Origin: Colius striatus
Taxonomy: Eukaryota > Chordata > Aves > Coliiformes > Coliidae
Length of the DNA: 64,000 nt
NCBI RefSeq assembly: GCF_028858725.1
Contig: NC_084790.1
Location: forward strand, 2,796,001 to 2,860,000
Direction of reading: 5' to 3'
This document shows positions 14,695 to 52,200 of this stretch, piece by piece; positions within the stretch are counted from its first letter, which is position 1; each line of letters starts with the position of its first letter. Made by a program: the position numbers and the translations under genes. The notes beneath the pieces are model-generated. The model did no database searches, had not been told where the DNA came from, and saw only the letters and a list, made by a program, of their open reading frames with translations.

Positions 14695-14802
14695 CTCGAG
14701 CTGCCGTCCGCGTGTTTTCTGCCCTGGGGTGGGTGGGGGGGGGTGTCACCGCCTCCCGTCCCGTCGGGTCACCGCCGGCTGCGCCCCCTCACGCCACGCC
14801 GC

Positions 14803-15045
14803 CAGCGCTGTGTGTCCCTCTGCGGCCGCCGTCAGCTCCACCGGCGCCGTGTGTCCCTCCGCGGCCACCGTCAGCTCCACCGGCGCCGTGTGTCCCTCCG
14901 CGGCCGCCGTCAGCTCCACCGGCGCCGTGTGTCCCTCCGCGGCCGCCGTCAGCTCCACCGGCGCCGTGTGTCCCTCCGCGGCCGCCGTCAGCTCCACCGG
15001 CGCCGTGTGTCCCTCCGTGGCCGCCGTCAGCTCCACCGGCGCCGC
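14803..15045. repeat. 39-bp tandem array upstream of AARSD1
   Basis: About six copies of a 39-bp unit (starts near 14,803, 14,842, 14,881, 14,920, 14,959, 14,998) differing by one to three bases. The unit is CpG-rich and includes GCGGCCGCCGTCAGCTCCAC. Being 13 codons long, it leaves frames open on both strands. It ends about 75 bases before the AARSD1 start codon, so it belongs to its promoter or 5' UTR. Confidence 0.95.
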
Positions 15046-15118
15046 CTGTCCCGCCGCGCCCGCCATCGCCGCCGCCGCGTCGTTCCCCGGCCGCCGCCCG
15101 CCCCGTCGTGCCGCGGCC
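15046..15118 (+). promoter_or_regulatory. AARSD1: AARSD1 proximal promoter / 5' UTR
   Basis: Dense CpG stretch between the 39-bp array and the start codon, with no TATA box. The start ATG sits in GCGGCCATGG, a strong context. Confidence 0.5.
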
Positions 15119-24104: not shown

Positions 24105-27100
24105 CTAGGCAGCCTTCTTGTCCTGTGTGGCCAGGAGCTGGGAGACACAGTAAGGGATGAGGCCCACGGTGGCCAGCGGCACGGCTGCACTCTTGCAGAA
24201 AGAGAGGACGTAGAAGAGCAGCTGCATGTGTGAGGGAGGCTTGAAGGCATCAAAGAGGTGGAGGATGAGGAGGGAGGCAGCGATGCAGCCCAGGCGGAAG
24301 GGCAGCCGCTGTCCTTGCTTGCCCCGGCAGCTCTCCAGGTACATGTGGGAGTTGAGGGCCAGTCCCAGCCCGAAGAGGATGCCCAGGTTACGCAGGAGGC
24401 TGGCGAAGGGGGTGGTGTCGATGTGAACCCACTCAGGGCGGGCACACCACTTCTGTGCCTTCTCCAGCGTCCAGAGCAGGTCCACGCCGAGCACCCGCAG
24501 CAGCAGGTAGAAGCCCAGGGCGAAGCTGAAGAGGAAGAAGGTGACCCCCAGGTACCGGCGGAGGCTGGCGTGGTAGATGCACTGGACATGCTGGAAGGTC
24601 TTGGCCACGACCATCCCTGCCAGTGAGGAAGCAGAAGAGGAGGTGGTGCTCAGCGGTGAGTGATGCTGTGCCTCGGGGCAGTGGATCTGAGCAGATCCCA
24701 CAGCCCTGGGGATACCCAGGTGCTCCCATGCGCTGTAGCCTGCCCTGAACGGCCACCGCTGTGCCCCATTGCTCACAGGTGTCCCAATTCTGCTTCTTCC
24801 CCTGCTGATGTCCTTTTACACCCCAAACCTGCCCTTGCCAGTCCTTCAGAGCCAGCAGTGCCCGGTCCAGATGACCAGGACTCGTGCCTCAAATGGGATA
24901 GGGAAAAGGGCATGTCCTGGAGGGCATCCTGCCCGTGGTGGTGAAGTGCAGGGCCATGGACACAGCTTTGTGTTATGACCTCACACGCTTCTGTTGGGTT
25001 GTGCACCCTTCCTGCCCAGTGCTGCAGGGGGAGTCAGATGCACTCACCTGAGATGACCCCTGCGATGACCTGATGGGGGAAGTGAGCAGCAATGAAGACT
25101 CGGGACAGGCAGACGCAGACCTGAACTGCCCAGAACCCCATCCAAAGCACCATCCACAGCACCCTGCGAGGGACAGGCAGCCACGTTGGTGCCAGGGCTG
25201 TCTCACACTGCCCAGAGCACTGCCACTGAGCACCCTGAGCAGTACCTGCCTGCCCCACAGAGCCCGTCCTCCAGCACATCCCACCTGGGGTACCACAGCC
25301 CAGCTCTCTGCCCACAGCCTTGTGCCTCCATGGGCTCATCTGTGTGTCACAGAATCCCAGAATGGGACTGGAAGGGACCCCCAGAGCCTAACACCCTGCT
25401 AAAGCAGGTTCCCTTCGATCACTGGGCACAGGAACATGTCCAGGTGAGTTTGGAAACCTCCCAAGGAGCCTCCACACCCTCCCTGGGCAGCCTGGGCCAG
25501 GGCTCCCTCACCTCAGCACCAAACAAGCTTCTTCTCCTAATCAGGTGGAACTTTTTGTGTTACAGCTATGTCCATTGCCCCTTGTCCTGTCACTGGAGAC
25601 AACAGAAGAAAGTGTTGCCCCATCCTCCTGACATTTACCCACTAGTTACTTGAAGTCTCAGTGAGGTCCTCCCTTCTCTTTTCTAGGCTAAACAGCCACG
25701 GTCTCTCAGGTCTAGAGCAGCCTCTGCCCAGCATGGGTGGCCTTGGCACACAGCTTACCAGTATTTGAGTGTCTTTGTCTGCTTCTTCCCCATGGCAGCA
25801 GAGAGGAGGGCTGTCACCATGACGTAGTACACGCCTGCTGCACCCATGGCATGGCCAGAAGGGCTCCCTGGGCGAGAAAACAGCCACTGGTCAGACCCTG
25901 CTTCAGATCCAGCTCCACCCAGGGTGCAGGCAAGGTGGGAGTGGGGAACAGCATGGCAGGGGCGATGCAGGAGCATGGCAGGGGTGGTGTAGGAGCATGG
26001 CAGGGGTGATGAAGGAGCACGGCAGGGGTGATGTAGGAGCATGGCAGTGGTGGTGTAGGAGCATGGCAGGGGTGATGAAGGAGAATGGCAGAGGTGGTGT
26101 GGGAGCAGGAGCATGGCAGTGGTGGTGTAGGAGCATGGCAGAGGTGGTGTAGGAGCATGGCAGAGGTGGTGTGGGAGCAGGAGCATGGCAGGGGTGATGC
26201 AGGAGCATGGCAGGGGTGATGCAGGAGCATGGCAGTGGTGGTGTAGGAGCATGGCAGAGGTGGTGTAGGAGCATGGCAGAGGTGGTGTGGGAGCAGGAGC
26301 ATGGCAGGGGTGATGCAGGAGCATGGCAGGGGTGATGCAGGAGCATGGCAGGGGTGATGTAGGAGCATGGCAGGGGTGATGTAGGAGCATGGCAGGGGTG
26401 ATGAAGGAGCATGGCAGGAGTGATGAAGGAGCATGGCAGGGGTGGTGTAGGAGCATGGCAGGAGTGATGTAGGAGCATGGCAGGAGTTATGTAGGAGCAT
26501 GGCAGGGGTGGTGTAGGAGCATGGCAGGGGTGATGTAGGAGCATGGCAGGGGTGGTGCAGGAGCATTGCAGGGGTGGTGTAGGAGCATGGCAAGAGTGGC
26601 GTAGGAGCACGGCAAGAGTGGCGTAGGAGCACGGCAGGGGTGATGTAGGAGCATGGCAGGGGTGGTGTAGGAGCATGGCAAGAGTGGTGTAGGAGCATGG
26701 CAAGAGTGGTGTAGGAGCATGGCAGGGGTGATGTAGGAGCATGGCAGGAGTGATGTAGGAGCATGGCAGGAGTGATGTAGGAGCATGGCACTCCCTCCAC
26801 TGCCTGTCTGGCAGGCAAGACTGGGCAATGACCATCCCTGACAGCTCATGCTGAGCACGCCAGGGATGTCTGCAGCCCTTCCCCTGCTCCCGTGGAAAGC
26901 AGCGGGCAAAGTCCAGGCAGAGCTGCTGGGAAACCAGGCAAAGCCTCTTCCTTACGGAGCCGGGGCTGCAGGGCAGAGCACGGCCCCAGCACGGGCTGAG
27001 GCTGTGGCTGAGCACGGGCAGGGGTTCCTGCTGAACTGCCACGTCTGCACCGAGGGTCAAGGTCTGCTCCGTGCAGGGGCTGCCCTTCCTCCCCCTCCTC

Positions 27101-33189: not shown

Positions 33190-36100
33190 TCAGAGCTGGC
33201 CGGGCTGTGGGGCCAGGCTGAGGTTGAGGAAGCCCCCGTAGCTGAAGGGGGGCAGGTTGGGGGTGCAGGAGGCAGCGTGGGGCAGGCAGGCGAGGGGGTT
33301 GTCCCTGCAAGCCCCGGCCTCCTGCTCGCTGCTGAAGTAGACGCTGTCAGGTGAGTCCACCGAGGGGTCCTGGTTGAAGTAGTTGTAGGGCCTCAGGAAA
33401 AAGCCGACGCCGTTGCCCACAGTCACGGTGTTGGGGATATCTTCAGCGTGGGGGACATGCAGGAAGCCCACGGAGATCCAGGCAACCAGGTCCTGGGCAG
33501 GAGGGGAGCCGGGAGCCTCGTCAGACTGAGTGTGACCATTCCAGCCCAGCAGCCACGCAGTTTGGTCACGGGATGGGTGAAGCCCCAGCCTGGGGCAGGA
33601 ACCCAAGGGCTCTGCTCCCCTCCACCCAGCAGACCCCATCTCACCTCGTTGGTGATGGTCTCGTTGTTGATGAAGTCAGCAAAGGCAACAGTGGGTGTCC
33701 AGGGGTCATTCTGGTTGTAGATGCTGGTGCTGGTGGGCTCCTCCTCCTTCCTCCGGGTGACAGCCAGCTGGTACCTGTCAGCATGGGGAGCAGAGGGGCT
33801 CATCCCTGCTGGCATGGGGAGCAGAGGGGCTCACCCCTCATCCCTGCTGGCATGGGGAGCAGAGGGGCTCATCCCTCATCCCTGCTGACATGGGGAGCAG
33901 AGGGGCTCAACCCTGCTGGCATGAGGAGTAGAGGGGCTCACCCCTCATCCCTGCTGGCATGAGAAGCAGAGGGGCTCATCCCTGCTGGCATGGGGAGCAG
34001 AGGGGCTCATCTCTCATCCCTGCTGGCATGGGGAGCAGAGGGGCTCACCCCTCATCCCTGCTGGCATGGGGAGCAGAGGGGCTCATCTCTCATCCCTGCT
34101 GGCATGGGGAGCAGAGGGGCTCACCCCTCATCCCTGATGGCATGGGGAGCAGAGGGGCTCACCCCTCATCCCTGCTGGCATGGGGAGCAGAGGCTCATCC
34201 CTGCTGGCATGAGGCATCCCCCAGCATGGCGAGTCATTGGCAAACAGGGGCTGGATGCATCCCTGGCACATGCCAAGTGACCTGCCCTGGGTCAGTGGGG
34301 CAGAGGGCTGGCAGGGACCAGCAGAGCAGAGACAGGCAGCAGCCCTGGCACCTTCTGCCTCACAAAGGATCACTCCCTGCCCATAGCTGCTCCAGCACAG
34401 CTGGGAGACACAAACATATCCAAGTGCAGACGCTGCTGCCTGACACACTCGCTCCAGCCATGGATCTGTTTAACTTCTACAACCCCCGCTCCCCGCCAGG
34501 ACAGGAACCATTAAGTTTCACCCTGGCTGTTAGCCAGCTCTGTGTTTATCCCAAATGTTTTCCAAAAGACATTCTGTCCTCGGATGAAGACGTCAAGATC
34601 CGGGGATGCGAGCACTTCCCTCAGGAGCTCATCCTGCAGCCCGGTTGCCCTCGCAGGGAAAACCACACGTGATTGCTCCCAAATTAATCTTATTTGGGGT
34701 CGGATTCCTGCCTGTGAATTATTGCATACAGATGTCACTGAGCAACTACCAAAGGGATTTTCAGAGCCAAGAATTGTGCATGTTTGCTGTTTAACCCTTC
34801 CCTGGACTTGCTGGGAGGCAGCAGCCCCCTGCTTTGCTGAGAGGCAGGAGCAGCAAGGGACAAAGTGACAGAAGCCCATCCCCATCCCTGGCACCCACCT
34901 GCCCCAGCTGATGGACCTCTCCATGGGGCTGCTGGCAGGCAGGTGCTCCCCAGCGAAGCTGGTGATCTGGATGCGGTAGCTGCGCAGATGGCCCCACTCG
35001 TTGGGCCTGGGGCTGGTAAAGGAGAGGTAGCGGGGCATGGGGCCATTGAGTGGGAAAGCCGCCTCGTCCTCCTTCTCCAGCCTTTCCCTGCGGAGGTACA
35101 GCCTTTCCATGGTGTTCTGCATGCTCCAAGGATCCTTCGCGAGCTTGTACCCCATGTCGTGTGTCTCCAGGGAGTTGAGTTGCCCTGTGAAACAGAAGAA
35201 AGCATCCTCTCAAGCTCCTCATCTCAGGCAGAGCCGCAGCCCGGGATCAACCATGGCCACAAGCAAAGGCAACCAGACCTACCATCGACATCCAGATCCA
35301 CCTTGTAGTGGATGTGATGGAGGTGCATCGACCCCAGCGTGTGGGGCCCAACCTTGTTGCCGTAGTCGGTGCCTTGGCCGTGGAGGAAGGAGGAGCTGAT
35401 GTATCCCGTGGCGTGCACCCGGACCTCCACAGCCCCGCTGCCGTGGAACATGAAGTCCCAGATGTAGTCGTAGTTGATGAGGGTGGAGATGGCGCGGATG
35501 ACCAGCGTGTTTTTCCGCAGCCCGCCGTAGTACAGCGACTGCGAGTCGGAGAAGTGGCGCCGCAGAGGGATGGCGGCGTCGTGCTCAAAGATGCACAGGG
35601 AGTTTTGGTTGGTTTTGGGGGTGTCTGACTCTGCCAGGTAGTGCCTGTCAACGTAGGTTGCCGTGTAGGGGCAGTCGACGCCCCGCACAAGCTCATAGGA
35701 AAACCTGCCGATACCAAAGCTCCCATCCATGTAGCGGGTGGACATGCCCCCGGGGCAGTTGGAGCCATACAGGGCTAAGGCTTCCTGAAGACTCAGCTCA
35801 TAGACAATCCTCTCCCCGCGGAACCTGATGTCGAAGAGGCGCGGGCCGGTGTTGGGGTTCATGCCGAAAGCGACGCTCCAGCCCTGGAAGGTGACGTGGT
35901 TGTCCCTGACACTGTAGCGGGGACCCTGGGGCTCGTAGGGCAGCGGACCCGGGGAGCCGGGCGGGCTCCTGGGTCTCATCGAGCCCAGCACTGTCTCAGC
36001 CCGGGGCTTCTCAATCCTGACCACCTCCAGCGAATCGGCCACAAACGCATCCTCCAGATGCCTCACGCTGGCAAAGTACCGGCCGTTGTAGAAGACTTGG

Positions 36101-36852
36101 CGCAGCTGCCAGCGGGAGACCTGGAGGTCCCTGTGGTCCACCAGCACCTCCAGCCCCACCGGTGAGAGGTAATAACCGGTGCCAGGCACGTTGTGGAAGA
36201 GAACAAACCAGCTCGTGCGGTCGCCGGACTTGAAGCCCCTCGGGGCCGTCGTGAGGATGGCCAGGTCGGTCCCGTCGGACTCGCAGCAGGCGGCAAGGAA
36301 GAGCGGGGCCTTCCTCAGCTCCCTCCGGATGAGGGTGTTGATGTCCTCGTACTCCTTACCGGTGACGGCTCTGCGGTGGTAGGGCAGCTTCCCGCCGTAC
36401 TTGCGCGCCGTGACGTCCCGGTGATACGCCGGCGTCGGCAGCGGCCCCACCACGTACTCGGTGATGTTGGGCTCCGGCTGGTCGCCGAAGTACAGCACGG
36501 CCAGTGCCTCCCGCGGCGGCCGAGCCCCCCCCTCGTCCAGGAAGCGCAGCACCTCGGCCTTGGCGGGCAGCTGCACGTCCAGGGAGGCGATGCAGTTGTC
36601 GGAGGGCTCGGCGCGGGAGGCGTCGGTCAGAGGCACCCCGAGGTGCCCCTGCAGGTACCGCACCACCTGCGCCAGCTCCTCGGCCGTCAGGTCGGCGAAC
36701 ACCCGGCTGCGGCTCTCCTCGGCCTCTGCCCGCGCCGGGGGCTGCTGCTGGCAGGGGCTGGGGGCCCTTCCCCTGGTCAGCAACACGCAGACCAAAGCGA
36801 ACACGGTGGCTAAAGCCAGGACGAGGAGGATGAGCACGGTTTTCACGTTCAT
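33190..36852 (-). CDS. AOC3: Membrane primary-amine oxidase, AOC3/VAP-1-like
   Basis: Copper amine oxidase that turns primary amines into aldehyde, H2O2 and NH3; the mammalian orthologue is a type II membrane ectoenzyme and leukocyte adhesion protein. Four exons: 35,283-36,852; 34,899-35,184; 33,645-33,774; 33,190-33,492, in phase, 762 aa (human 763). I start at the Met of [17 protein letters not shown], which begins the single N-terminal anchor; an upstream in-frame Met lacks family similarity. Active-site parts are intact: TPQ precursor Tyr461 in INYDY, copper ligands His510 and His512 in HLH, third ligand His674 in FLHVPH, and base Asp in RYMDG. A bulky residue (Ile) precedes the Asn-Tyr, as Leu does in AOC3, and the gene holds AOC3's place next to G6PC. 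A 464-bp part of exon 1 and nearly all of exon 3 are identical to the neighbouring locus. Orthology as AOC3 is probable, not proven. Confidence 0.93.
33778..34215. repeat. 31/38-bp minisatellite in AOC3-like intron 2
   Basis: About a dozen units sharing GCTGGCATGGGGAGCAGAGG, in 31-bp and 38-bp versions that differ by an added CTCATCC-type segment. The array runs right up to exon 3: the splice acceptor (CATGCTGACAG on the minus strand) is itself a variant of the repeat unit. Confidence 0.93.
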
Positions 36853-37900: not shown

Positions 37901-38329
37901 TTTAATGGATCCAGAAAACATGATAGAGACCCATCATCATGATTATCCCCCCCTGCAGACGCTGCTGTAAGTCATAAGAACGAGACACTCAAGAGAACGC
38001 TGGACCAGAACCATTTTCATTGTTTTTAACCTGAGACAGGCACTACACAGCACTTGCTTTTACAGCAGAGGAACGGGGGTTTTCTCCTCACTTTCCTCCT
38101 GCAACAGACTCAAAGTCGGAGATTAACAGAGATAATGCTGCCTCCCTGTCAGGCATCATGCCAGGAGGATCACACTTCCCTTTTCAAAGAGCACTATTTT
38201 AAAAGCAATGACAGAGCAGCGAAGTCGCTGCACAGCTGGAGACTGAGACAACTTCACTAAGGGGAAAAAAAGCCACCGGGAGCAGTAAACTCGCTGTCCC
38301 TGACTGTCTCCTAACGCCTTCCTGGAGCA

Positions 38330-41300
38330 TTACAGCCTGCTCACGTTCTGGAAGCCGTCGTAGGTGAAGGGGGGGAAGCTTGGCAAGCAGGAGGCGGTTT
38401 TGGGCAGGCAGGCGATGGGGTTGACGTCACACGCCGTGACGTCCTGCTCGCTGGTGAAGAACACTCCGTCGTGAGAGTAGATGGAAGGGTCCAGGTCGTA
38501 GTAGTTGTAGGGTCTCAGGAGGAAGCCGACAGCGTTTCCCACCGTCACGGTGTTGGGGATATCCTCAGAGTGTGGGATGTGAAGGAAACCAGCGGTTATC
38601 CACGCAACCAGGTCCTAGGCAGGGAAGATCCACAAGACCGGGGTTATTTCAGAAGCCTGCAGTGACCAAAATCTGTGTAGGGGCCACGGAAAGTTACAGG
38701 AGAGCAGGAGGAGACCTCCCTGGCATCAGCCTGGCCTCCCTCCTGCCAAAGATCCCCTCCCTTCCCCAAAGACCTGCCCACAGCCACGAATGTCCACCCA
38801 GCAGAAGAGCCCTTGCCCTGACCCCCATGGCCAAGCTCTGACCTTGCAGAGATTTTCCTGATGTTTTGCCAGCATTTCTAAATAGGGAGAAATGAGCTCC
38901 TTACAATCTGTGCACAAAACACCAAGCAGACACACAGAAAAGGGGATACTCAATTCGCTGTCTCATTCTGATTGCCCAGAGGCTGTGCTGCCAGGCAGCC
39001 AGGTCTCAACCAGCTGCAGAGCTGGGCACAGAGGAACCTGCTGAGGGTCACCAAGGGCAAGGGCAGAGTCCTGCAGCTGGGGAGGAACAAGCCCCTGCAG
39101 CAGCACAGGCTGGGGGTGACCTGCTGGAGAGCAGCTCCAGGAGACAGACCTGGCACTGCTGGGGGAGAATCAACTGCCCATGAGCAGCAACGTGGCCTGG
39201 TGGGCAAGAAGCCAATGGCAGCCTGGGGGCATCCAGCAGAGTGTGGGCAGCAGGGCCAGGGAGCTTCTGCTCCCCTTTGCTCTGCTCTGCCACATGTGCT
39301 GAGGCCTCATCTGGAGTCCTGGGGCCAGTTGTGGGCTCCCCAGCTGCAGAGGGACAGGGAAGTGCTGCAGAGAGGCCAGCACAGGGCCAGCAAGATGCTC
39401 AGGGCACTGGAGCATGTTCCTGCTGAGGAAAGGCTGTGGGCCCTGGGGCTGCTCAGGCTGGAGAAAAGGAGACTGAGGGGGGAGCTCATTCATAGTTACA
39501 AATATCTAAATGGTGGGTGTCAGGACATTGGGGCAGCACTTTTTTATTCCTGTTGCATCCAGTGACAGGATCAAGGGGTGATGGGAAGAAGCTGGAACAT
39601 AAAAAGTTCAATTTAAACATAAGGAAAAACTGTTTCAGTGTTGGGGTGAGGGAGCCCTGGCACAGGCTGCCCAGGGAGGGTGTGAAGGCTCCTTCCTTGG
39701 AGGTCTTTAAGACTCACCTGGACCTCTGTGACCTGATCTAGGTGGGACCTGCTTTGGCAGGGGTTTGGACTGGATGATCTATAAAGGTCCCTTCCAACCC
39801 CCACCATTCTGTGATTCCCCAGGGCTGCTGCTTTCCCAGCTGAGCCCACTCACTCCTTGGGGCAGCCCTGGGGCTCCTGCTCAGCCTGGGGCTGGCTATT
39901 ACAGCTCCAGCCCAGCCCAGCCCACCTCGTTGGTGATGGTCTCGTTGTTGATGAAGTCAGCAAAGGCAACAGTGGGCGTCCAGGGGTCATTCTGGTTGTA
40001 GATGCTGGTGCTGGTGGGCTCCTCCTCCTTCCTCCGGGTGACAGCCAGCTGGTACCTGAGGATGAGAAAAAGAGATGGGATGATAAAAGAGATGCCTCCT
40101 GAGGCAGGGAAGAGCTAAAAGCCAGCTCCCCAGAGAGTCTGCAGAGCACAGTTCTGCTCCTGCTGAGCAACCCCCACCCAGGAGAGCATTTGTGCTTCCC
40201 CATGATGGGGGGATGCCTCCCAGGCCCTGGGGCTGCTGGTGTCTCTGAGAACCCATCCCCCCAGCCAAAGCAGCCTGACCTTGCCCAGCTGATGGCCCTC
40301 TCCATGGAGCTGGCTTCAGGGAGGTGGTCCCCTGCAAAGCTGGTGATCTGGATCCTGTAGCCACGCTGGTGGCCCCACTTGTTTTTGCTGTTGGCCGCAA
40401 AGTAGATGTATCTGGGCATCTTCTCCTGGAGGCGGAAGGCAGCCTGGTCCTCTGTGTCCAGGACTTTCTTGGTGAGTCGTGGCCTCTCTATCTGCTGCTC
40501 TGGGTTCCAGGGAGCCCGTGCCATCTCAAACGCCATGTCGTGGGCCACCAAGGAGTTTTTCACCCCTACAAAGCACAGGCAAAGTCGCTGAGGAGCATCT
40601 GCACAGTCCCCTGTTCCCCAGGCACGTCACTGCAAACAGTGATTGTTCTCCTCATCCTCCTTTCCTGCACCCCAGGACCTGAGCACCAGCTTCAGCCCCT
40701 ACGAGCAGTTACTGCTCCTCAGAACTGGGACTATACACTATGTATTATCTATGGCTTAACAATGTGTTTGCCTGACCTGGGCACTCATCACCAGCCATGG
40801 GGACTCTCACCCTGGGTGAAGAACAAGAGAGGAGCCTCATCCCAGTGCAGAAGAACAGGTTTGCTTCCCAGTGTTAACAGAAACTAATTAACTCAAGCAC
40901 CTGATGGCCCTGGCACCGTGTTTGTGCTCATCAGCACACATCCTGTGATCTGCAAAGCACAGGGAAGAGCCTGGGCCCTGAGCGCATTTGCACATCACAG
41001 AGCTGGAGCAGTGCCGTGCAGTTCAGGTCTTTCCACAAAGAAGAGCCAGAGCCTCAGAGCATCAGGAGTTGCAAATAATCCTGTGGACAAGATGGCAAAG
41101 AGCTGTCTGGGAGTGCTGGATGGCCAGTGCCAGCACAACTGGCAGAGGGGACACTGCTTGGCGCTCGCTGACCAACCCAGCCAGAACACGGGGCTGCTGT
41201 GCCCTGTTCCCCTCGGCCCCACATGAATCCCCAGCCTGTGTAAAGGCCATTTCAGAATTGAATCTCTGACAATCCTGGAAGGTTTCAGCAGCCCCTGGGG

Positions 41301-44300
41301 CCAGAGCCCCGTGGAAGAGGATCCACGCCCAGAAACTGCCACTGTGCTCGTTTTCTTCCCTTTTTTGATGTGAACAAAACTTGTAACTCCACACCTCTCC
41401 TTGCAGTGGTAGCAGAGAGTCTGATTTCATCTTCCTTTTCACAGAATGAGTGGTAGGGGTAGGAAGGGACCTTTAGAGAGCATCCAGCCCAAGCCCCTGC
41501 AGAAGCAGGTTCCACCTAGATGAGGTCACACAGGAACGTGTCCAGGTGGGTTTGGAAACCTCCAGAGAAGGAGCCTCCACACCCTGCCTGGGCAGCCTGG
41601 GCCAGGGCTCCCTCACCTCAAGTGAAAGAGTTTGGCCTAATGTTTAAAGGGAGCTGTTTGTGCTCCAGCTCATGCCCATCACCCCTTGTCCTGCCACTGG
41701 AGACAACAGAAAAAAAGCGCTGCCCCAACCTCCCGACACCCACCATTTAGATACTGGTAACTGTTAATGAGCTCCCCCCTCAGACTCCTCCAGACTAAAC
41801 AGCCCCAGGGCCCACAGCCTTCCCTCAGCAGGAAGATGCAGTTTTGCAATCCCCCTTTCTTACCTAAGTATTCGAAACTCATCATAAACCCACGTGGGCC
41901 AGTCTCTAAATCTGTTTTTCCCAATTAAAAGGAAACTGAGAAATTCTCAGTAGATGGCAGGAGCACCCAGCAAATGCAATTCCAGCAGGAGTAGAAGAAC
42001 AGAATCGTGGCACAAATAGTAGGGGGAAGACTGAGAAAAATGCAGCTGATGCTGCAGTTGCTGGTGTAAGCAAAGGATCCCTCAGATCCCTGGGAAAAGG
42101 GAGCTGGGGCTCTTTAACTTGGAGGAGGCTGAGGGGTGACCTTATTAATGTTTACATTAGGAGGATGGAGCCAGGCTGTTCTCAGTTATGGTCAATGACA
42201 GGACAAGGGGCAATGGATATAAACTGGAACAGAAGAGGTTCCAAAGAAACACAGGAAGAATTTCTTCCCTGTTGAGATAAGGGAGCACTGGAAGGAGCTG
42301 CCCAGATGGGCTGTGGAGGCTCCTTCTCTGGAGACATTCAAACCCAGCTGGATGAGTCCCTGTGTGCCCTGCTCTAGGTGGTGCTGCTCTGGCAGGGGGG
42401 TTGCACTGGATGAGCTTCCCAGGTCCCTTCCAGCCCTTCAGATTCTGTGAAAAGGGATAAGCTCAGCACAAGCTGAGTGCTGGCTGCCTGCCCAGCATCT
42501 GCCTGCTGTGCCCACAGCCCCACGGGGAAGGCAGCAGCCTGTCCCACTCACACACGAGCAGCAGCAACAGTGGGACAAAGCCAGAGGAAGTAGGAATGCG
42601 AGCTGGAAACCACATCCCAAAAAGCCAGCCTGCTCGACTCTATCATTTGGGGCATGGGACAAGGGCAGGGCACCAGATGGAAAAATCATAACTTCTGCAG
42701 AGCCCCGTAGGTGTCGAGGCCAGCAGGGCAATGCCGAGGCTGTCTGCCCAGGCAGAGGGGACAAACCTCTTCCCATGAGGAGCAGGGGCTGGGGACACTG
42801 TTGCTGGTGTTACCCAGCCCAGAGAACCACAGCTCTGCGTGATACGCACACAAGAGGGGACAGAAGGGGAACTTACCATGGAATCATTTTGGTTGGGAAA
42901 GACTTTGAGGCTCCTGGAGTCCCAGCCCTGCCCAGCCGTGGCCCATGCACCTCAGCTCCACAGCTTTGGGATCCCTCCAGGGCTGGGAACTCCCCCCACT
43001 GACACACAATGTCAGTGTTTAACAATCCTTTCAGTGAAGAAGTTCTGCCTAATACCCTGTATCACAACAGCTCTTCACTGCTCAGGAAGAAAAACCTTTA
43101 TGAGGACCATAGAATGTCAAGCTCTGGGAGACTAAAAGTAGTCAGGGGGGACACAAAGCAGGAGGAAGACCCAGACCTACCTCCCACGTCCAAGTCCACT
43201 TTGTAGTTCACAGAATGAGTGCGTATCATACCCAGCGTGTGCTCCCACAGCCTGTTGCCGTATCTCAGCCCATCCCCGTGCAGGAAGGATGAGCTGGGGT
43301 ACCCCGCGGCCTGCACCTTGCCTTCGATGGCCCCGTTCTGGTAGAAGATGAAATCCCACACGTAGTTGTGGTTGCCCACAGTTGAGATGGACCGAAGGAC
43401 CAGAGCAGAGTTGACCATCCCCCCGTAGTAGAGCGACTGCAAGTTGGAGTAGTGTCGCCTCAGAGGGGAGCCCAGGTTGTGCTCAAAGATGCAGAGGGCG
43501 TTTTTAATAGTTCTTGGGACCTGGGAATGAGCCAGGTAGTGCACGTCCAGGTACGTTGCTAAATAGGGGCAGTCGACCCCCCGCACCAAGGGGGAGCTGT
43601 AGCGGCCGATGCCAAAGCTGCCGTCCATGTACCTGGTGGACATGCCGCCGGGGCAGTTGGAGCCGTACACCGACAGGGCCTCCTGCACGCTGATCTCGTA
43701 GGCCACCCTCTGGCCCTGGTGCCGCACGTCAAACAGGCGCAGCCCCGTGCTCACGCTCACGCCGAAGGCGAAGCTCCAGGCCTGGAACTGCACCTGGTTG
43801 TCCCTCACGCTGTAGCGGGGGCCCTGGGGCTCGTACTGCAGAGGGAACGGGGCGGCCCCAGGCGCTCGCGGCTTCATGGACGAGAAGTCCCCGTCCCGCG
43901 GCGCTTTCCTCACCTTGGCCACGCTGACGCGGCCCTGCGCGTAGGCGCTCTCCAGCTGGGCCATGTCCCTGTAGTACTGCCCGTTGTAGAACACCCTGCT
44001 CACCGCCCAGCGGGACGTGTCCGGGCTGCTGTGATCCACCAGCACCTCCAGCCCCACGGGGTGCACAAAGAACCCGCTCACGTTCTGGAACACAACCAAC
44101 CAGGACTTACGGTCTCCGGACCGGAACCCGTGAGGTGCCGTGGTCTGAAACGCCACGTTGGTGCCGTCGTACTCCAAGACTTCTTTCAGGAAGGTCGGGG
44201 CTGCAGCGAATGCCACCATCTCTAAGAATGCTCCCAGCTGCTTGTACTCGACAGCCAGCGTGGGTCTGCGGTGGTAGGGCAGCTTCCCGCCGTACTTGCG

Positions 44301-47300
44301 CGCCGTGACGTCCCGGTGATACGCCGGCGTCGGCAGCGGCCCCACCACGTACTCGGTGATGTTGGGCTCCGGCTGGTCGCCGAAGTACAGCACGGCCAGT
44401 GCCTCCCGCGGCGGCCGAGCCCCCCCCTCGTCCAGGAAGCGCAGCACCTCGGCCTTGGCGGGCAGCTGCACGTCCAGGGAGGCGATGCAGTTGTCGGAGG
44501 GCTCGGCGCGGGAGGCGTCGGTCAGAGGCACCCCGAGGTGCCCCTGCAGGTACCGCACCACCTGCGCCAGCTCCTCGGCCGTCAGGTCGGCGAACACCCG
44601 GCTGCGGCTCCTGGAGTCCGTGTTCTCCACGACGTGGGGCTGGGATTCGCAGCTGGGTGAGCGCTTCCCCCTGCTCAGCAGCATGCAGGACAGCACGAAG
44701 ATGATCACCGCAGCCCCCAGCAGCAGGACGTAGGGAAGCTTCGGATTCATTTCCCCGAGCGCAGAGACGGCGTGTGCGGCTCGGCTGCAGCGTCCAGAGT
44801 CGGGCTCCCACGCGCAGACCAGGCTCTTGGTTCACTTGTGGGCGTTGAAGGCGTTGCTGGCGAGGTGGGGAGGGAACCTGCAGCTCCCATGGCTCTCGGA
44901 GAGGAGATCACAGGTGACAGCCAGTTCAGCCTGTTCCTCCCCAGCCCAGCCAGACACACCGAGGAACCCCCCGGGGAGACGGTGCCTGACTCACTCCCCA
45001 AGCTGCCCCAAGCTTTCCCCGCTGCAGGTGACACCATGAAGAGCCCCAGCCTCCATCTGCTCAAAGGGCCTTTGTCTCTCTCAGTATCTCACAGGACACC
45101 CCATCCCATCTGGTGTGGCAATGTCACGGCTGCAGGCTCAGCCAGTCCCATGCTCCTGCACCCCAGGAGCAGCCCCGTTGCCCTGCAGGGCCAGACCAGG
45201 CTGGCAGCCCAAGACCCGCCGGCTCCCCAGTGCCTCCACACCCCAGTTCTCCCCGTCGCCCTTCTCCTGCCTCCAAGTCCCTCCCAGCCCTGAGGAAAGC
45301 GACAGGCAGCTCCAGCCTGGCTTCAGCCTTGGGCAGACACACCAAGATGGGAGGAAGGTCCACGGTGAGAACAGGCAGCACTCGCCGAACGAGCGGCAGG
45401 CAGGACCTGGAGTACCAGGAAGATCAGAGGCTGCAGGAGGACTGACAGGAGACATCTGTCCCCATTCAGCCATCCCAACCCCACTCCTGCAGACATGATC
45501 CTTAGAGAAGAGCTGTCACGGACAGAAATGGTCGCTGTTCAGTGACCCTGACAGATCTTCCCTGAGGAGGAAAGCAGCCAGCAGCCCTTTGGAGAGAGCA
45601 AGCAGGGGGCTGAGGCCATCTCACCACAGGCCAAGGAGGCTGCTCCTGCATGGCCACGGGCTTCTGCGAGGCTGGCACCACTGTACCCAGCCCAAACACC
45701 AACTGTTAAGGACAGCTTCTCAGAGATGGTGGCCCACTTCACACTCTTCTAGGAGACAGTTTGTGGCACAGGCAGGAGGAGCTGAGCAGGGGCTGAAACC
45801 ACTACAGCACCACATCAATCCACCACCCTTGTGGTCATGTTAATTTGGGAGCTTACGTTTTCATTCTCACTTCCAGACAGGGAATAATTGTCCCTTTTCC
45901 CTGCAGGTCTTGCAGCAGCCTCAGATCAGGATCCAAGAAACCTGAGTGGGAGACGACCTCTTTTTGCTGCGCTGCAGTTTCGCCTTCCCTGTGCTGAGCA
46001 GATCCTGGGAGCCTCTGGAGCACTCCACATGGCCCCAAGCCCTGCTCCTCGGGACAGGGCTCCCCTCCCTCACTAAGGGGACCGAGTCTGACGTTTTACA
46101 CAACTCTCTCCACAGGGTTTTGCAGCAGCTGGGCCTCGGGGGCTGTAAACAGAGCAGGGAACAGAGGGGCACGGCCGTCACGGAAAAGGACCTTGTCACC
46201 TCACAGGAACTGTGTTTTACAAGCTTTGGAGCTTTGTTTATAGGAAGAGGACAACTGTAAGCTCTGGCTTTGACCATGAGGACAGCAGCAGCACCTTTCA
46301 AGGCCACACAAAGCGCTGGCTGGCAGGCAGGTATGAGACAGGACACATGCTGGGACTGAGTACTTGCTCTGAGCCAACTGCAGCCTGACAGACGCAGTTC
46401 TGCCACGAATCCCACGGTCCAGGAGGCAGCATGGGGTTACTGGAGCTGCATTTCTCCTCAGGCCGGTACAGGCACAGCCTACCAGTGATCCCTCTGGCTC
46501 CGTGCAGATGGAAAACACTGGTTTCCCCCCTGTCTTCTAGAGGAGCAGTTTTCAGTATCAGACGTTGTCTCAGGCTGCCCAGGGAGCTGGGGCAGTGCCC
46601 AGCCCTGGAGGGATCCCAAAGCCGTGGGGCTGAGGTGCTGAGGGCCGTGGGTTAGTGCTGGGTGAGGGCAGGGGTTGCACTCCGTGATCTTAAGGGTCTT
46701 TTCCAACCGAAACGATTCCATGACACCTCGTGCTACAAATCTGCGCCCGCAGCACCGCCGGAGCCCGGCACCTTCCCGGGCTGCAGTTACTGGAGTGGCC
46801 TTTGCGCGGCGGCAGAGCTGAGCTTTCAGGCTCAGCATCCCGGTACCTCCCGGGGTGGCTGCCAGCGCGTCCCGGCTCAGCCGGGCAGCACGGGGCTGCC
46901 CCTGCACTCAAATAACCCCCGGCAGGGATGCGCTGCCAAAACCCGTGCGTGTGTGCAGGAGCAGGGGAAGTCACTGGCTCACTGCAGCGGCTTTGCAGCC
47001 CGAGGCTCCGGATCCAACTTACAAGAGTTTCCTCAAAAGAGAAGCGGGGATAGAGCTGCAGAAGCCCAGCCCTGCAGAGCCCCGTCCAGCTGCAATGCTC
47101 AACGCCGGGCGGGCGAGATACACAAAGGACTCTCCCCGAGTTACAAGGGGCAGCGGGACCGGCCCCGGGCGCAGCAAGAGCAAGCTCACAGCTCCAGTCC
47201 TGCAGACAGGGCTGTGCCTGCCCGTCTGCCTGCCCATGCCTACGGCAACACGCACCCTGCCAGGCGGGAGGCCTCAAGGAAACACAAACATTCCCCAGCC

Positions 47301-49128
47301 GCTACCTTTCATACTTTCCCTGGGTTGAACATAGCGCTCCCAGACAATTCCCACTGCCTTCAGCTGCACGACCTCAACAGACTCCCTCACGCACAGGGGA
47401 AAAAACCCCCGTGATTTGGCAATGAAAGAAGAGGCTAGGAGAGTGAAAAAGCAGAGATCTGGTGTCAGTCATTAATGACTCCACAGATGAAGAGGCAACA
47501 GCCCAAAGTGCTGGGCCTTTACCAGTATCACAGCAGACATGCAAGAAAGACCCAGACCTACCTCCCACATCCAAGTCCACTTTGTAGTTGACGGAATGGG
47601 TGTGCACTGTACCCAGCGTGTGCTCCCACAGCCTGTTGCCGTATCTCAGCCCATCCCCGTGCAGGAAGGATGAGCTGGGGTACCCCGTGGCCTGCACCTT
47701 GCCTTCGATGGCCCCGTTCTGATAGAAGATGAAATCCCACACGTAGTCGTAGTTGCCAACGGTCGCGATGGACCGAAGGACCAGAGCAGAGTTGACCATC
47801 CCCCCGTAGTAGAGCGACTGCAGGTTGGAGTAGTGTCGCCTCAGAGGGGAGCCCAGGTTGTGCTCAAAGATGCAGAGGGCGTTTTTAATAGTTCTTGGGA
47901 CCTGGGATTGAGCCAGGTAGTGCACGTCCAGGTACGTTGCTAAATAGGGGCAGTCGACCCCCCGCACCAAGGGGGAGCTGTAGCGGCCGATGCCAAAGCT
48001 GCCGTCCATGTACCTGGTGGACATGCCGCCGGGGCAGTTGGAGCCGTACACCGACAGGGCCTCCTGCACGCTGATCTCGTAGGCCACCCTCTGGCCCTGG
48101 TGCCGCACGTCAAACAGGCGCAGCCCCGTGCTCACGCTCACGCCGAAGGCGAAGCTCCAGGCCTGGAACTGCACCTGGTTGTCCCTCACGCTGTAGCGGG
48201 GGCCCTGGGGCTCGTACTGCAGAGGGAATGGGGCAGCCCCAGGCGCTCGCGGCTTCATGGACGAGAAGTCCCCGTCCCGCGGCGCTTTCCTCACCTTGGC
48301 CACGCTGACGCGGCCCTGCGCGTAGGCGCTCTCCAGCTGGGCCATGTCCCTGTAGTACTGCCCGTTGTAGAACACCCTGCTCACCGCCCAGCGGGACGTG
48401 TCCGGGCTGCTGTGATCCACCAGCACCTCCAGCCCCACGGGGTGCACAAAGAACCCGCTCACGTTCTGGAACAAAGCCAACCAGGTGATGCGATCTCCGG
48501 ACCGGAACCCGCGGGGAGCTGCCGTCATGGCAGCCAGGTTGTTCCCGTCATACTCCAGGACTTGGTGCATGAAGGACGGAGCCGTGGGGAAGACTTGGCT
48601 CCTTAAAAACCCCGCAATCTGCTTGTACTCGACAGCCAGCGTGGGTCTGCGGTGGTAGGGCAGCTTCCCGCCGTACTTGCGCGCCGTGACGTCCCGGTGA
48701 TACGCCGGCGTCGGCAGCGGCCCCACCACGTACTCGGTGATGTTGGGCTCCGGCTGGTCGCCGAAGTACAGCACGGCCAGTGCCTCCCGCGGCGGCCGAG
48801 CCCCCCCCTCGTCCAGGAAGCGCAGCACCTCGGCCTTGGCGGGCAGCTGCACGTCCAGGGAGGCGATGCAGTTGTCGGAGGGCTCGGCGCGGGAGGCGTC
48901 GGTCAGAGGCACCCCGAGGTGCCCCTGCAGGTACCGCACCACCTGCGCCAGCTCCTCGGCCGTCAGGTCGGCGAACACCCGGCTGCGGCTCTCCTCGGCC
49001 TCTGCCCGCGCCGGGGGCTGCTGCTGGCAGGGGCTGGGGGCCCTTCCCCTGGTCAGCAACACGCAGACCAAAGCGAACACGGTGGCTAAAGCCAGGACGA
49101 GGAGGATGAGGATGGTTTTCATGTGCAT
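38330..49128 (-). CDS. AOC2: AOC2-like copper amine oxidase, distal first exon form
   Basis: Predicted membrane amine oxidase of 755 aa. Exons: distal first exon 47,562-49,128, then 40,280-40,565; 39,926-40,055; 38,330-38,614. Phases agree (first donor splits a Gly codon after one base). No copy of exons 2-4 lies between the two first exons, so this exon must use the set near 39 kb and skip the proximal first exon; the intron would be 7.0 kb. Two Mets (49,128 and 49,122) could start it, both before the anchor [18 protein letters not shown]. The active site is complete: TPQ Tyr460 in GNYDY, His509 and His511 in HTH, third ligand His673 in FLHIPH, Asp in RYMDG. Gly before the Asn-Tyr is what I recall for AOC2, and the place next to PSME3 is that of mammalian AOC2. 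Exon 4 ends NVSRL. Confidence 0.82.
38972..39815 (+). mobile_element. CR1 LINE with remnant of ORF2 C-terminus, in AOC2-like intron 3
   Basis: Longest CR1 in the window, 5'-truncated, in sense orientation. Its first 270 bases translate to a piece resembling the end of the CR1 reverse-transcriptase ORF ([20 protein letters not shown], then [17 protein letters not shown]); it then runs through the 3' UTR to a CCACCATTCTGTGATTC tail. The limited decay suggests a moderately young insertion. It sits between shared exons 3 and 4, antisense to the host gene. Confidence 0.92.
41441..41842 (-). mobile_element. CR1 LINE 3' fragment in AOC2-like intron 1
   Basis: Starts with the inverted tail TTCACAGAATGAGTGG, contains GGGCAGCCTGGGCCAGGGCT and reaches CCTCCAGACTAAACAGCCCC. 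Confidence 0.92.
42095..42450 (+). mobile_element. CR1 LINE 3' fragment in AOC2-like intron 1
   Basis: Sense CR1 3' region with GGAGGCTGAGGGGTGACCTT, AGAAGAGGTTCCAAAGAAAC and CCTTCAGATTCTGTG at its end. Confidence 0.9.
42880..43060 (-). mobile_element. CR1 LINE 3' tip in AOC2-like intron 1
   Basis: Antisense tip: GGAATCATTTTGGTTGGGAA, then CTTTGGGATCCCTCCAGGGC. It lies about 120 bases from the donor of the proximal first exon. Confidence 0.85.
43181..44750 (-). CDS. AOC2-like proximal first exon, inactive oxidase cassette
   Basis: A fully open first exon of 523 codons plus one base. It has the same GTAGGT donor and phase as the distal one, so it can join exons 2-4 (40,280-40,565; 39,926-40,055; 38,330-38,614) into a 756-aa protein. 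It has its own N-terminal anchor ([19 protein letters not shown]). Catalytic residues are lost: TPQ Tyr is His461 (codon 43,368-43,370; motif GNHNY), the next acidic residue is Asn, and a copper-ligand His is Arg510 (codon 43,221-43,223; motif RTH). Asp of RYMDG remains. It should bind copper poorly and cannot form TPQ, so it is either a pseudoenzyme or an exon on its way to decay. Its lack of stops or frameshifts favours recent loss or retained use. Intron to exon 2 is 2.6 kb. Confidence 0.85.
44760..47550. other. Sequence between the two AOC2-like first exons
   Basis: 2.8 kb holding one CR1 piece and no exons 2-4 for the distal first exon. The 100 bases above 44,750 are CpG-rich, and 46,730-47,200 is another GC-rich, CpG-containing patch. 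Either could hold a promoter for the proximal first exon. No other gene is visible. Confidence 0.5.
46560..46725 (+). mobile_element. CR1 LINE 3' tip
   Basis: Sense CR1 tip: CAGGCTGCCCAGGGAGCTGG, GTCTTTTCCAACCGAAACG and ATTCCATGAC at the end. It lies between the two first exons. Confidence 0.88.
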
Positions 49129-49239
49129 GGCTGCTGCTGGTCCCCGGGGCAGTCACAGCAGCTCTCGGAGCAGGGTTCCTCGCTGCTGCCTCTGTCAGTT
49201 TACGCTGCGCTGGATGGATTAGCGAGGAAAGCAAGCACA

Positions 49240-52200
49240 AAAGACTGGGAGAGGCTAGGGGAGGAGATCTGAAATTCGTGGTGACCAGAAAGGGCAGATC
49301 TCCTCTCTCAGCTGCTTCTGTCCTCCTCCAAGAGCTGTGCCCTGAAAGAACTGGTGGAGATGCAGGGTCAGTGACTCAGACAAGTTTCACACAGCTCTGT
49401 TACTTTTTCGGTCCAACCTAGCTTCCTGAGGCTGCCTGGAAAAACGGAGACCTTTTAGTCAGCCTGAGGTGACCGGGACCACTGCGAGGCTCTGACAGGC
49501 TGGCAGCTGTTGCCACACTGTAGGATTTCACCTCTTTGCGACTCAACGAGCTTTCTTGTTTATCAGGCTGCTTCCTTGTAAACATTCTCCCTGGCAGTAA
49601 GATGCCAAGCTCGGGACTGCTGCTCGCTTTACCTTTTTTAATCTTCCCCGTGGAAGCCTTTGCTGAGAACACATCCATCTGTGTAGTGGCAGAAAAGCTT
49701 TGGCAGGCACGGTGGGATGTAGTTCGGGATGAGATTCAGGCCATGGCACGCAGCGAACAACCAGCTCTTAGTTTGCACCTCTGAACGGCTCTGAGCTAAC
49801 TAACGCCTCAGCATCCCACTCCAACAAAAACCACAAAGCTTTTGTCCGCTTCCCATTCAAAAGATAAACAGAGGTGCAGCTTCTCCAGAAGTTCCCTCAA
49901 AGACAAAACCACCACAAGCCATGGTGTGCAGGAGGGCAGCTGGTGGCACTGTGCTGCCAGGCTGCTGTTGCCCCAGGCTCAGCAGCCACCTCCAGGGTTT
50001 CTACCAAAAGCTGAGGGCCAATTGTCCTCTGCCAACCCCTCCAGAAGCTCTCGCTGCTGTTGAAAGGCCTTGGCAGAACGAGGTGACCAGGCAACAGAAC
50101 TTGGGGCTTCGTCCTGCCACGCGGCAGATGTTTGGGGTAGACGAGACACACAGCTTTAGCTACAAACCCTGCCTGTCCCTGAGCTGGTGCTGAGAAGCTC
50201 AAGGCATCCAAGAGAACCAGGGCTGGAGATTCGACCCAACATTTCCACTCCTGCTGCCAGCCTCACCTCACCTCACCCTGGCCTTCTCTTCCTCCTCCCG
50301 TCAGAGTTTCCTGGTGGGGCTCAGCCCCGCTCCCTGCCTCAGCACTGCCTCCAGCTCTCCTCTGCAGCAGATCTTGCTCCTGGACCCAGCCCCTCTGCGG
50401 TTCTCCAGCCGTGCTCACCAGACACCACACTGGTAGGCAGAAGGCCACGTTGCCATAGGACACACTCCATTATCCTCACCACCAGTGGCAGCCTCAGCCT
50501 TCTTTAGCCCAGGCTGCAGCTGGGCAGGCCAGGGACACGGGTGTCTGCTCCCTGCCAGAGCATCTCTCTGACACAAGCAACAGGGACAGACAGGACAGAA
50601 GAGAGAGCCTTGGCTACACAGGACACCACAGCTACTCCCTGCTCCCATCAACACCCACTGGCCTCCAGTGGGAGAATCAGATGCCTCCAAGCAGCCCCAA
50701 ATTAAGCAAAGAACCGCTGACTTCCAAGTCTGTCTTTCCATCCACAAAGTCAACAAGGCTTTGAGGACTCAGGGTTAGGCTTGAAAGGAGAATTCCCTTT
50801 CAGTGTAAGCCTAGAACATGGCATTCATTTCTGAGTGCAGAGAGGAAGTGCTCTTACTCCAGTGAAGGTTTAGAGCAGAGCCAGGACAACCTCGTGCCTC
50901 CCAGGAATTTAACTGCAACACATCCCTACACAGCAGAGCCTGCAGAGACCTCTGAGGCTGCCTTGTGCAACCGTCACGTTGGCATCTCCTTAAAGAAGTA
51001 CAGAAAGAGCAGAGCACTCAAGCTTTGACTTAGCCTCTTGGTTTTGCATCCCAAAGTCCCTAAAAGACAGGGCACAGGCTGCAATTACCAGATGGTCATC
51101 TTCCACGCAGCACAGCAGTAGTTTAAGGGAACTGGATAAGCTCCACAGGCCTTCCTGCCCCACAAATCACAACTCAACCCTGCAGCTTGCCTGGGAGAGG
51201 TCTGAAAATAAAAGTGTGGGAACACTCTTAGTTCTGTGCATGTGGAGTGGATGGGGGAGGGGGAAAAAAAACTCCAAACAGTGACCTGTAATGACATCCC
51301 TATGAGAAACCAGCCCTCAGCACACACACCCCGGGCTTGCAGGACACAGATGGCACAAGCAAAGCTTCCTGCACTGCCACTGCATGAAGCACGTGCCACA
51401 GATGCCATGCCTAATGCCATCTTACTTAACACTGTCCATTTCTGCTGTTCCTTCCAAGCTGAGGGCTTCTAAAGCCTGCTTGAAAGCGACACAAGGATGA
51501 GGCAGCACTTCCTGGGAGCTCTGCTTCTGACCTAACAGAGCACAGCCTTAAACCCAGCTCCATCTTTAAAGGAGAAATGTCAAGGAGCAGAGTGATTAAC
51601 TGAGACTGCAGAGCCAGGAAACCTGTGCCAACACCTCGCTGATGAAAAGTAACCGGGGATCTTTAAGGGCCACGGATACCACTGGATTGCTTGTGCACCT
51701 TCTCCAAAAGCAGCCCTGAAGCAGCTTAAAGCTAACCTAGCATTTAAAAAAAATTACATGTCTCACTAACAGCAGCACAAGTTGTTTATGACCTGTTTGG
51801 GGCATATACATCTTCCCACAGCTCAGCTACATGGCCTGATCAGCCTCTTGCTCTGGCCCACACCTAATTTGGAGGATCCACATCCTCCCTGTGTTTATTT
51901 TGGCCACAAAAAGTTGCTTTTAGGTGCTGCCCATCACTTTATAATTGCTACATTGCCCACGTCTCCCCAGCAAAGCGAGGAAGAGTGTGCTGGGGTTTTT
52001 TTTTTGCTTGTACAGAAAGGTAGAGGTGGCAAAAAATAGTCTCTGAAATTTATAGAAACCAAACCCAGAGACAGACAGCTTTTAGCTCAGGGAAACTCAG
52101 AGTCAGTGTCTGCCAGACAGGCTGGGTAAAGAGTACAGTACAGAAAACACCTCGCTGACACAGGCAAGTCCTAAGCACACCCCAAGCCTGAGCTCAGACT

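Follow-up and report, generated by a model that had tools for sequence, protein, structure and literature searches.

An AOC3-like first exon without the TPQ precursor tyrosine in Colius striatus, and its mosaic identity with an active-type neighbor

Under the prevailing model, AOC3/VAP-1 works both enzymatically and as a receptor in adhesion (PMC6306676). Amine oxidases are described as dimers (PMC12058724), and the tyrosine of their T-x-x-N-Y-D/E motif is reported to be converted to topaquinone (TPQ; PMC3382800, with the motif also given in PMC12058724). In another amine oxidase, three histidines bind copper, two of them arranged as H-x-H and the third distant (PMC3382800), and His684 is named as one copper ligand of VAP-1 (PMC3548902). 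A catalytically dead form of VAP-1 is described in the delta3 splice isoform, which arises from the locus of the active form, heterodimerises with it and lowered surface VAP-1 by 39-46% in transfected human cells (PMC3548902). This study analyzed 64,000 nucleotides of the Colius striatus genome (NCBI RefSeq assembly GCF_028858725.1, contig NC_084790.1, positions 2,796,001 to 2,860,000; hereafter the window, with positions counted from its first base), which carry three AOC-type first exons. One of them, exon B, is open throughout and lacks the tyrosine codon for the TPQ precursor.

Other relatives without activity have been recorded. The mouse seminal vesicle protein SVS I has been described as a copper-amine-oxidase homologue, as exon B is, and is not known to be an enzyme; it is an AOC1-like secreted protein and not an alternative exon. 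The human AOC4 pseudogene and Arabidopsis CuAO epsilon 1 and 2, the latter two termed fragment copies, are amine-oxidase copies without function or active-site residues (PMC12058724); unlike them, exon B is open, spliceable and full-length when joined to exons 2-4. For the relation of exon B to its neighbor, exon C, a described counterpart is the divergence peak of the human red/green opsin genes under the Teshima-Innan model (PMC3924837), in which conversion between tandem copies likewise leaves a peak at functional sites. Exons B and C differ from the opsin case in that the peaks fall on the catalytic residues of an enzyme and are seen in one genome only. Among the matches listed in the open-licence literature, judged by titles and the starts of abstracts, no avian AOC pseudoenzyme was found. 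A scan of viral contigs for relatives returned two pattern matches, of which none was confirmed.

Gene structure and catalytic center of exon B

The three first exons lie on the minus strand, as do all the exons and exon segments described below: exon C at 49,128-47,562, exon B at 44,750-43,181 and exon A at 36,852-35,283. Exon B comprises 523 codons plus one nucleotide without a stop and matches the Pfam families Cu_amine_oxid, N2, N3 and DUF1965. These N2, N3 and catalytic domains, together with VAP-1 as the best match in the PDB, assign it to the AOC2-4 (VAP-1) branch of the copper amine oxidases. Its donor, GAG/GTAGGT at 43,181/43,180, is intact and fits in phase the acceptor TTTGTAG/GGGTG at 40,565. 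Exon C, an active-type first exon that retains NYDY and HTH, ends in the same GAG/GTAGGT with identical phase. Joined to exon 2 (40,280-40,565), exon 3 (39,926-40,055) and exon 4 (38,330-38,614, which contributes the stop codon as well as the third copper ligand, VAP-1 H684), exon B yields a predicted product of 756 residues and exon C one of 755. The predicted B product has a membrane anchor at its N-terminus and aligns from end to end with human VAP-1 (residues 1-751 of the query with 1-761 of the chain); the anchor and the splice phases thereby agree with membership in the VAP-1 branch. We propose that an AOC3-like gene can use exon B as an alternative start of its coding sequence.

Gene A (33,190-36,852) is a third AOC paralogue with active-type residues and its own exons 1-4. 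A tblastn search of the window with exon 2-4 peptides (hits above 26 bits) identified two exon 2-4 sets, one belonging to A and one downstream of both B and C; no further copy was found, including between C and B, and the idea that C has separate exons 2-4 there was rejected. Exon C has only the shared exons downstream of it in the window, or, further on, those of A. If C works, as its conserved center suggests, its donor must skip B, and B would then be an alternative head.

From codon 222 to the end, exon B differs from C by eight residues (C>B: Q408H, A456S, Y461H, D462N, T482A, T508M, V509I and H510R), which agrees with the estimate of about eight over the last 300 or so codons in the first-pass annotation of this DNA. 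That annotation had also placed three of the changes in the catalytic center, and comparison with exons C and A and alignment to human VAP-1 (1pu4) bore this out. A histidine codon (CAC, 43,368-43,370) replaces the TPQ precursor tyrosine at position 461 (VAP-1 Y471), an asparagine codon (43,365-43,367) the aspartate at 462 (D472), and an arginine codon (43,221-43,223) a histidine at 510 (H520); C and A carry Tyr, Asp and His. We take H520 and H522 to be copper ligands of VAP-1.

The motif of active enzymes, T/S-x-x-N-Y-D/E, reads T-V-G-N-H-N in exon B. Only two of the three copper-ligand histidines are kept, because the first of the H-x-H pair is arginine, whereas His522 is retained, as is His684, which the shared exon 4 encodes. 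The catalytic base Asp386 is also retained (D376 in B). No stop, frameshift or broken splice site was found in the exon, so that the earlier statement of 523 open codons and an intact donor stands. Exon B is thus like human AOC3/VAP-1 in its domains, N-terminal anchor, third copper ligand, catalytic aspartate and full-length colinearity, and unlike it in the loss of the catalytic motif, with altered channel residues and without the TPQ tyrosine, Asp472 and His520. Because the precursor tyrosine is missing, the B product cannot make TPQ. On its predicted residues, exon B is an AOC3/VAP-1-type first exon without amine-oxidase chemistry, from which the TPQ precursor and one copper ligand are gone.

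It is very improbable that this center has instead been rewired, with His461 replacing the lost His520 as a ligand in a metal site of new chemistry. The Tyr-to-His change affects a metal-facing residue and is coupled with the loss of a histidine ligand 49 residues further on, and His522 and His684 would still be available. In apo AGAO, moreover, the vacant metal site is described as enclosed by the precursor tyrosine and three histidines in a seemingly tetrahedral arrangement; with copper bound, the tyrosine hydroxyl is about 2.5 Å from the metal (PMC3382800). However, Arg510 would probably put a positive charge near the site. The AlphaFold run on the three paralogues of the window (predicted local distance difference test score, pLDDT, 38; predicted template modelling score, pTM, 0.31) was useless as support and was not used for the fold of B.

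The mosaic of identity between exons B and C

Similarity between exons B and C is confined to the interval from 44,610 down to 43,163, a point 18 bp beyond the donor. Their upstream and intron flanks (within 38,200-51,500) gave no alignment at E 1e-3, apart from one weak inverted match (42,877-42,996 with 46,589-46,722, 73% over 134 positions), which we interpret as a dispersed repeat. Along the exon itself, B-C divergence is bimodal. The synonymous divergence (dS), in segments counted by alignment column and so up to two ahead of the B codon numbers, was 0.93 for columns 1-47, 0 for 48-171, 0.96 for 172-220, 0.018 for 221-455 and 0.22 for the last 70; there are no differences in columns 48-171 and four in 221-455. 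The values of 0.93 and 0.96 are similar to those from A in conversion-free segments (0.73-1.32).

A two-state hidden Markov model (HMM) run on codons 48-523 estimated divergence at 0.5% outside and 34% inside three islands. Island 1 (codons 172-220; 44,093-44,237) differs from C at 50 of 145 nucleotides and holds the channel positions VAP-1 180, 209-213 and 227. The two micro-islands are far shorter: codons 456-462 (43,367-43,385; 6 of 19 nucleotides differ) cover the gate and TPQ motif, VAP-1 468-472, and codons 508-514 (43,209-43,228; 8 of 20 differ) the H-x-H copper-ligand motif. The lowest posterior was 0.39 in the first island and 0.97 in the other two. Between island 1 and the exon start lies a 373-bp tract identical to C (44,238-44,610), 346 bp of which also equal gene A, and between island 1 and the first micro-island lies a nearly identical tract (43,386-44,092) with runs of 238, 320, 84 and 56 bp; both are attributed to gene conversion. 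The identical runs around the micro-islands measure 56 bp before them and 25, 33 and 78 bp between. The N-terminus of B (44,611-44,750) appears unconverted and encodes its own membrane anchor and stem (hydropathy peak 2.8, residues 8-26), with 15 of 47 residues common with C.

The longest identical runs were 373 bp for B-C, 465 bp for A-C and 346 bp for A-B, the last being present in all three exons. In a permutation of polymorphic sites, the B-C run of 105 agreeing sites and the A-C run of 55 were each matched in none of 5000 shuffles; the A-B value of 3562/5000 comes from a test that is blind here, the shared block having no polymorphic sites. As in the Teshima-Innan model, the flanks show low divergence and the peaks are narrow and coincide with functional sites. 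These findings point strongly to gene conversion as the cause of the mosaic, and the near-identity of B and C is best explained as conversion overlaid on an old split of the two exons. A recent duplication was rejected on the dS values and the non-alignable flanks. The first-pass annotation had proposed a recent pseudoenzyme; pseudoenzyme is still the best reading of exon B, but "recent" did not survive these data.

Nor was there support for the catalytic changes having been driven by GC-biased conversion: Y461H and H510R run from AT to GC, but D462N runs from GC to AT. Among nucleotide changes derived in B from codon 48 on, polarised by A alone, 13 were strong-to-weak versus 6 weak-to-strong.

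The block of 346 bp is identical in the three first exons at 36,370-36,715, 44,265-44,610 and 48,646-48,991, and A and C are identical over 465 bp (36,370-36,834 and 48,646-49,110). Such identities would reflect either very recent conversion or an assembly copy. It is improbable, in our view, that the mosaic is an assembly artefact, in which the assembler copied identical blocks into three repeats or built B as a chimera of paralogue reads. The presence of the same 346 bp in all three copies, in a segment with a GC content at third codon positions (GC3) of 0.96, fits that explanation. However, the sequence of the window is free of N and of any other ambiguity code. The divergent islands remain in frame, retain AOC-like residues and are improbable as sequencing errors, and the exon 3 copies of the A and B/C genes are also 96% alike, suggesting that conversion is active at the locus.

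The exon 3 similarity (33,626-33,777 and 39,907-40,058, including a few intron bases) is, on these alignments, a separate conversion tract; the exon 2 and exon 4 matches of the two genes are 70% and 77% alike. A tandem array with spacing of 38 and 31 bp adjoins exon 3 of gene A (33,736-34,204). From codon 7 on, A equals C through the anchor and stem (36,834 and 49,110), so the membrane anchor appears homogenised in A and C and not in B.

We then compared the islands with catalytic positions. Three of six catalytic residues fall among the 8 changes in 300 codons (hypergeometric P 0.0002; P 0.006 for codons 456-523 only), but both tests are post hoc, exon B having been singled out for these very residues, and hypergeometric values built on HMM-defined islands are circular and were not relied on. 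Synonymous differences provide a less biased test, since the exon was not selected for them. Ten codons outside island 1 differ only synonymously, and five of them lie within four codons of 461, 462 or 510; this zone takes up 19 of the 427 codons (P 2e-5). Among 427 circular shifts, one reached this clustering, and among 100,000 random sets, two matched the median distance; the width of the zone was our choice, and six widths from 3 to 10 gave P values of 0.004 to 2e-5. The islands occupy 63 of the 476 codons analyzed in exon 1. They hold five of the six catalytic positions (386, 470-472, 520 and 522), where 0.79 would be expected; 71 of 20,000 random placements and 3 of 476 circular shifts reached this number. 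For the 33 cavity positions the number is 14, with 4.37 expected (174 of 20,000 placements; 2 of 476 shifts). These values are partly post hoc. The cavity set was taken from PMC7144023 and PMC5794975, to which we added 471, 520 and 522; residue 368 was left out because the published Phe368 is Ala in the sequence used.

With synonymous differences gathered around the altered codons, the catalytic substitutions appear to sit in leftover fragments of old sequence that escaped conversion and not to be strewn over a young copy; the annotation's remark that the changes are far from random scatter holds on this count. PMC3924837 and PMC3728101 describe divergence peaks where selection keeps paralogues distinct despite gene conversion, and the B/C island pattern resembles such peaks.

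Constraint on exon B, and other features of the window

Several results are consistent with constraint on exon B. In island 1, its nonsynonymous divergence (dN) from A is nearly equal to that of C (0.539 and 0.524). Exon B differs in length from C by just one whole codon, in frame, at the N-terminus; it has no stop, and the hydrophobic anchor is retained. On these grounds we infer, from one genome, that B was constrained through most of its history.

Other results weigh against this conclusion. Measured against A, island 1 has a dN/dS ratio of 0.62 in B and 0.40 in C, although dS is noisy, and its identity to human VAP-1 is 15/49 for B and 21/49 for C. From codon 48 on, 14 polarised changes fall in B, 5 in C and 12 are ambiguous (binomial P 0.064). 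These values give some sign of relaxation in B. The open frame, which the first-pass annotation had offered as evidence, is indeed open but counts for less than was claimed, because conversion would refresh most of B. About 109 codons are informative for this test, and in simulations of neutral evolution the share of stop-free runs was 7% with 0.47 substitutions per site, which corresponds to a wholly neutral B branch, and rose to 16% with 0.3, 24% with 0.2, 45% with 0.1 and 66% with 0.05.

The excess of B-derived over C-derived changes and the short informative length, over which recent neutral drift often leaves no stop, would also be expected if B were a neutral relic, a dead first exon refreshed by conversion with C, with purifying selection on C alone blocking the passage of dead codons from B into C. 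No TATA-like box was found within 600 bp upstream of B, nor was one found for A or C. If B was mostly the donor, the islands could also be kept by selection acting only on C. We regard the relic explanation as unlikely, though it carries real weight. A neutral B should in time be overwritten at micro-islands of 19-20 bp, given the identical runs on either side, and the island 1 dN close to that of C and the whole-codon length difference also speak against a relic.

Elsewhere in the window, the flanking ORFs (open reading frames) resemble what we take to be PSME3, G6PC1 and AARSD1. The ORF list includes a tandem repeat at 14,700-15,200, open in several frames on both strands, which presumably lies ahead of the AARSD1-like gene. 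It also includes several overlapping minus-strand ORFs built of repeats at 25,755-26,951, which are probably a long minisatellite open in three frames.

A possible non-catalytic head of a VAP-1-like protein

In the reading that we favor, exon B is old, a first exon of AOC3/VAP-1 type whose catalysis would have been lost and whose remaining coding frame was kept. Because B and C both lie upstream of a single exon 2-4 set, the locus would most likely make two proteins through alternative first exons. The chances seem to us evenly balanced that these are two type II membrane proteins with shared exons 2-4, a catalytic C form and a non-catalytic B form that is maintained. Conversion would homogenise most of B and C, with the channel, gate/TPQ and copper-site patches remaining different, and selection would remove converted copies at the three patches and so maintain the inactive center. 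We put forward more tentatively that catalytic and dead heads are mutually exclusive on the shared tail, and that selection repeatedly undoing conversion at the channel, TPQ and copper-ligand codons keeps the dead head dead.

The B product may act at the cell surface as a VAP-1-like partner of the C form that does not itself oxidise amines. Mixed B/C dimers are plausible because the family is dimeric, exons 2-4 are wholly shared and the Arm I residues compared (442 and 446-448) are identical. The pairing may lower the activity of C, or B may bind ligands without producing hydrogen peroxide. The delta3 isoform resembles this model as a dead form from the active form's own locus; it differs in being a C-terminal truncation without His684, whereas the B product would span the full length, carry point changes and start from a first exon of its own, and the fall in enzyme activity reported with delta3 was only a trend that did not reach significance (PMC3548902). 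An adhesive role for B is not a given, since human Y471F is reported to be expressed normally and to support leukocyte interactions less well than the wild type (PMC6306676). For this reason, the comparison favors a modulatory role of B over a plain adhesive one.

If the heads are mutually exclusive, their ratio would set the share of the surface dimer that oxidises amines. A natural full-length inactive form, distinct at the catalytic codons, would allow a direct test of the non-enzymatic role of VAP-1, and exons B and C would be a compact case of selection separating two paralogues residue by residue.

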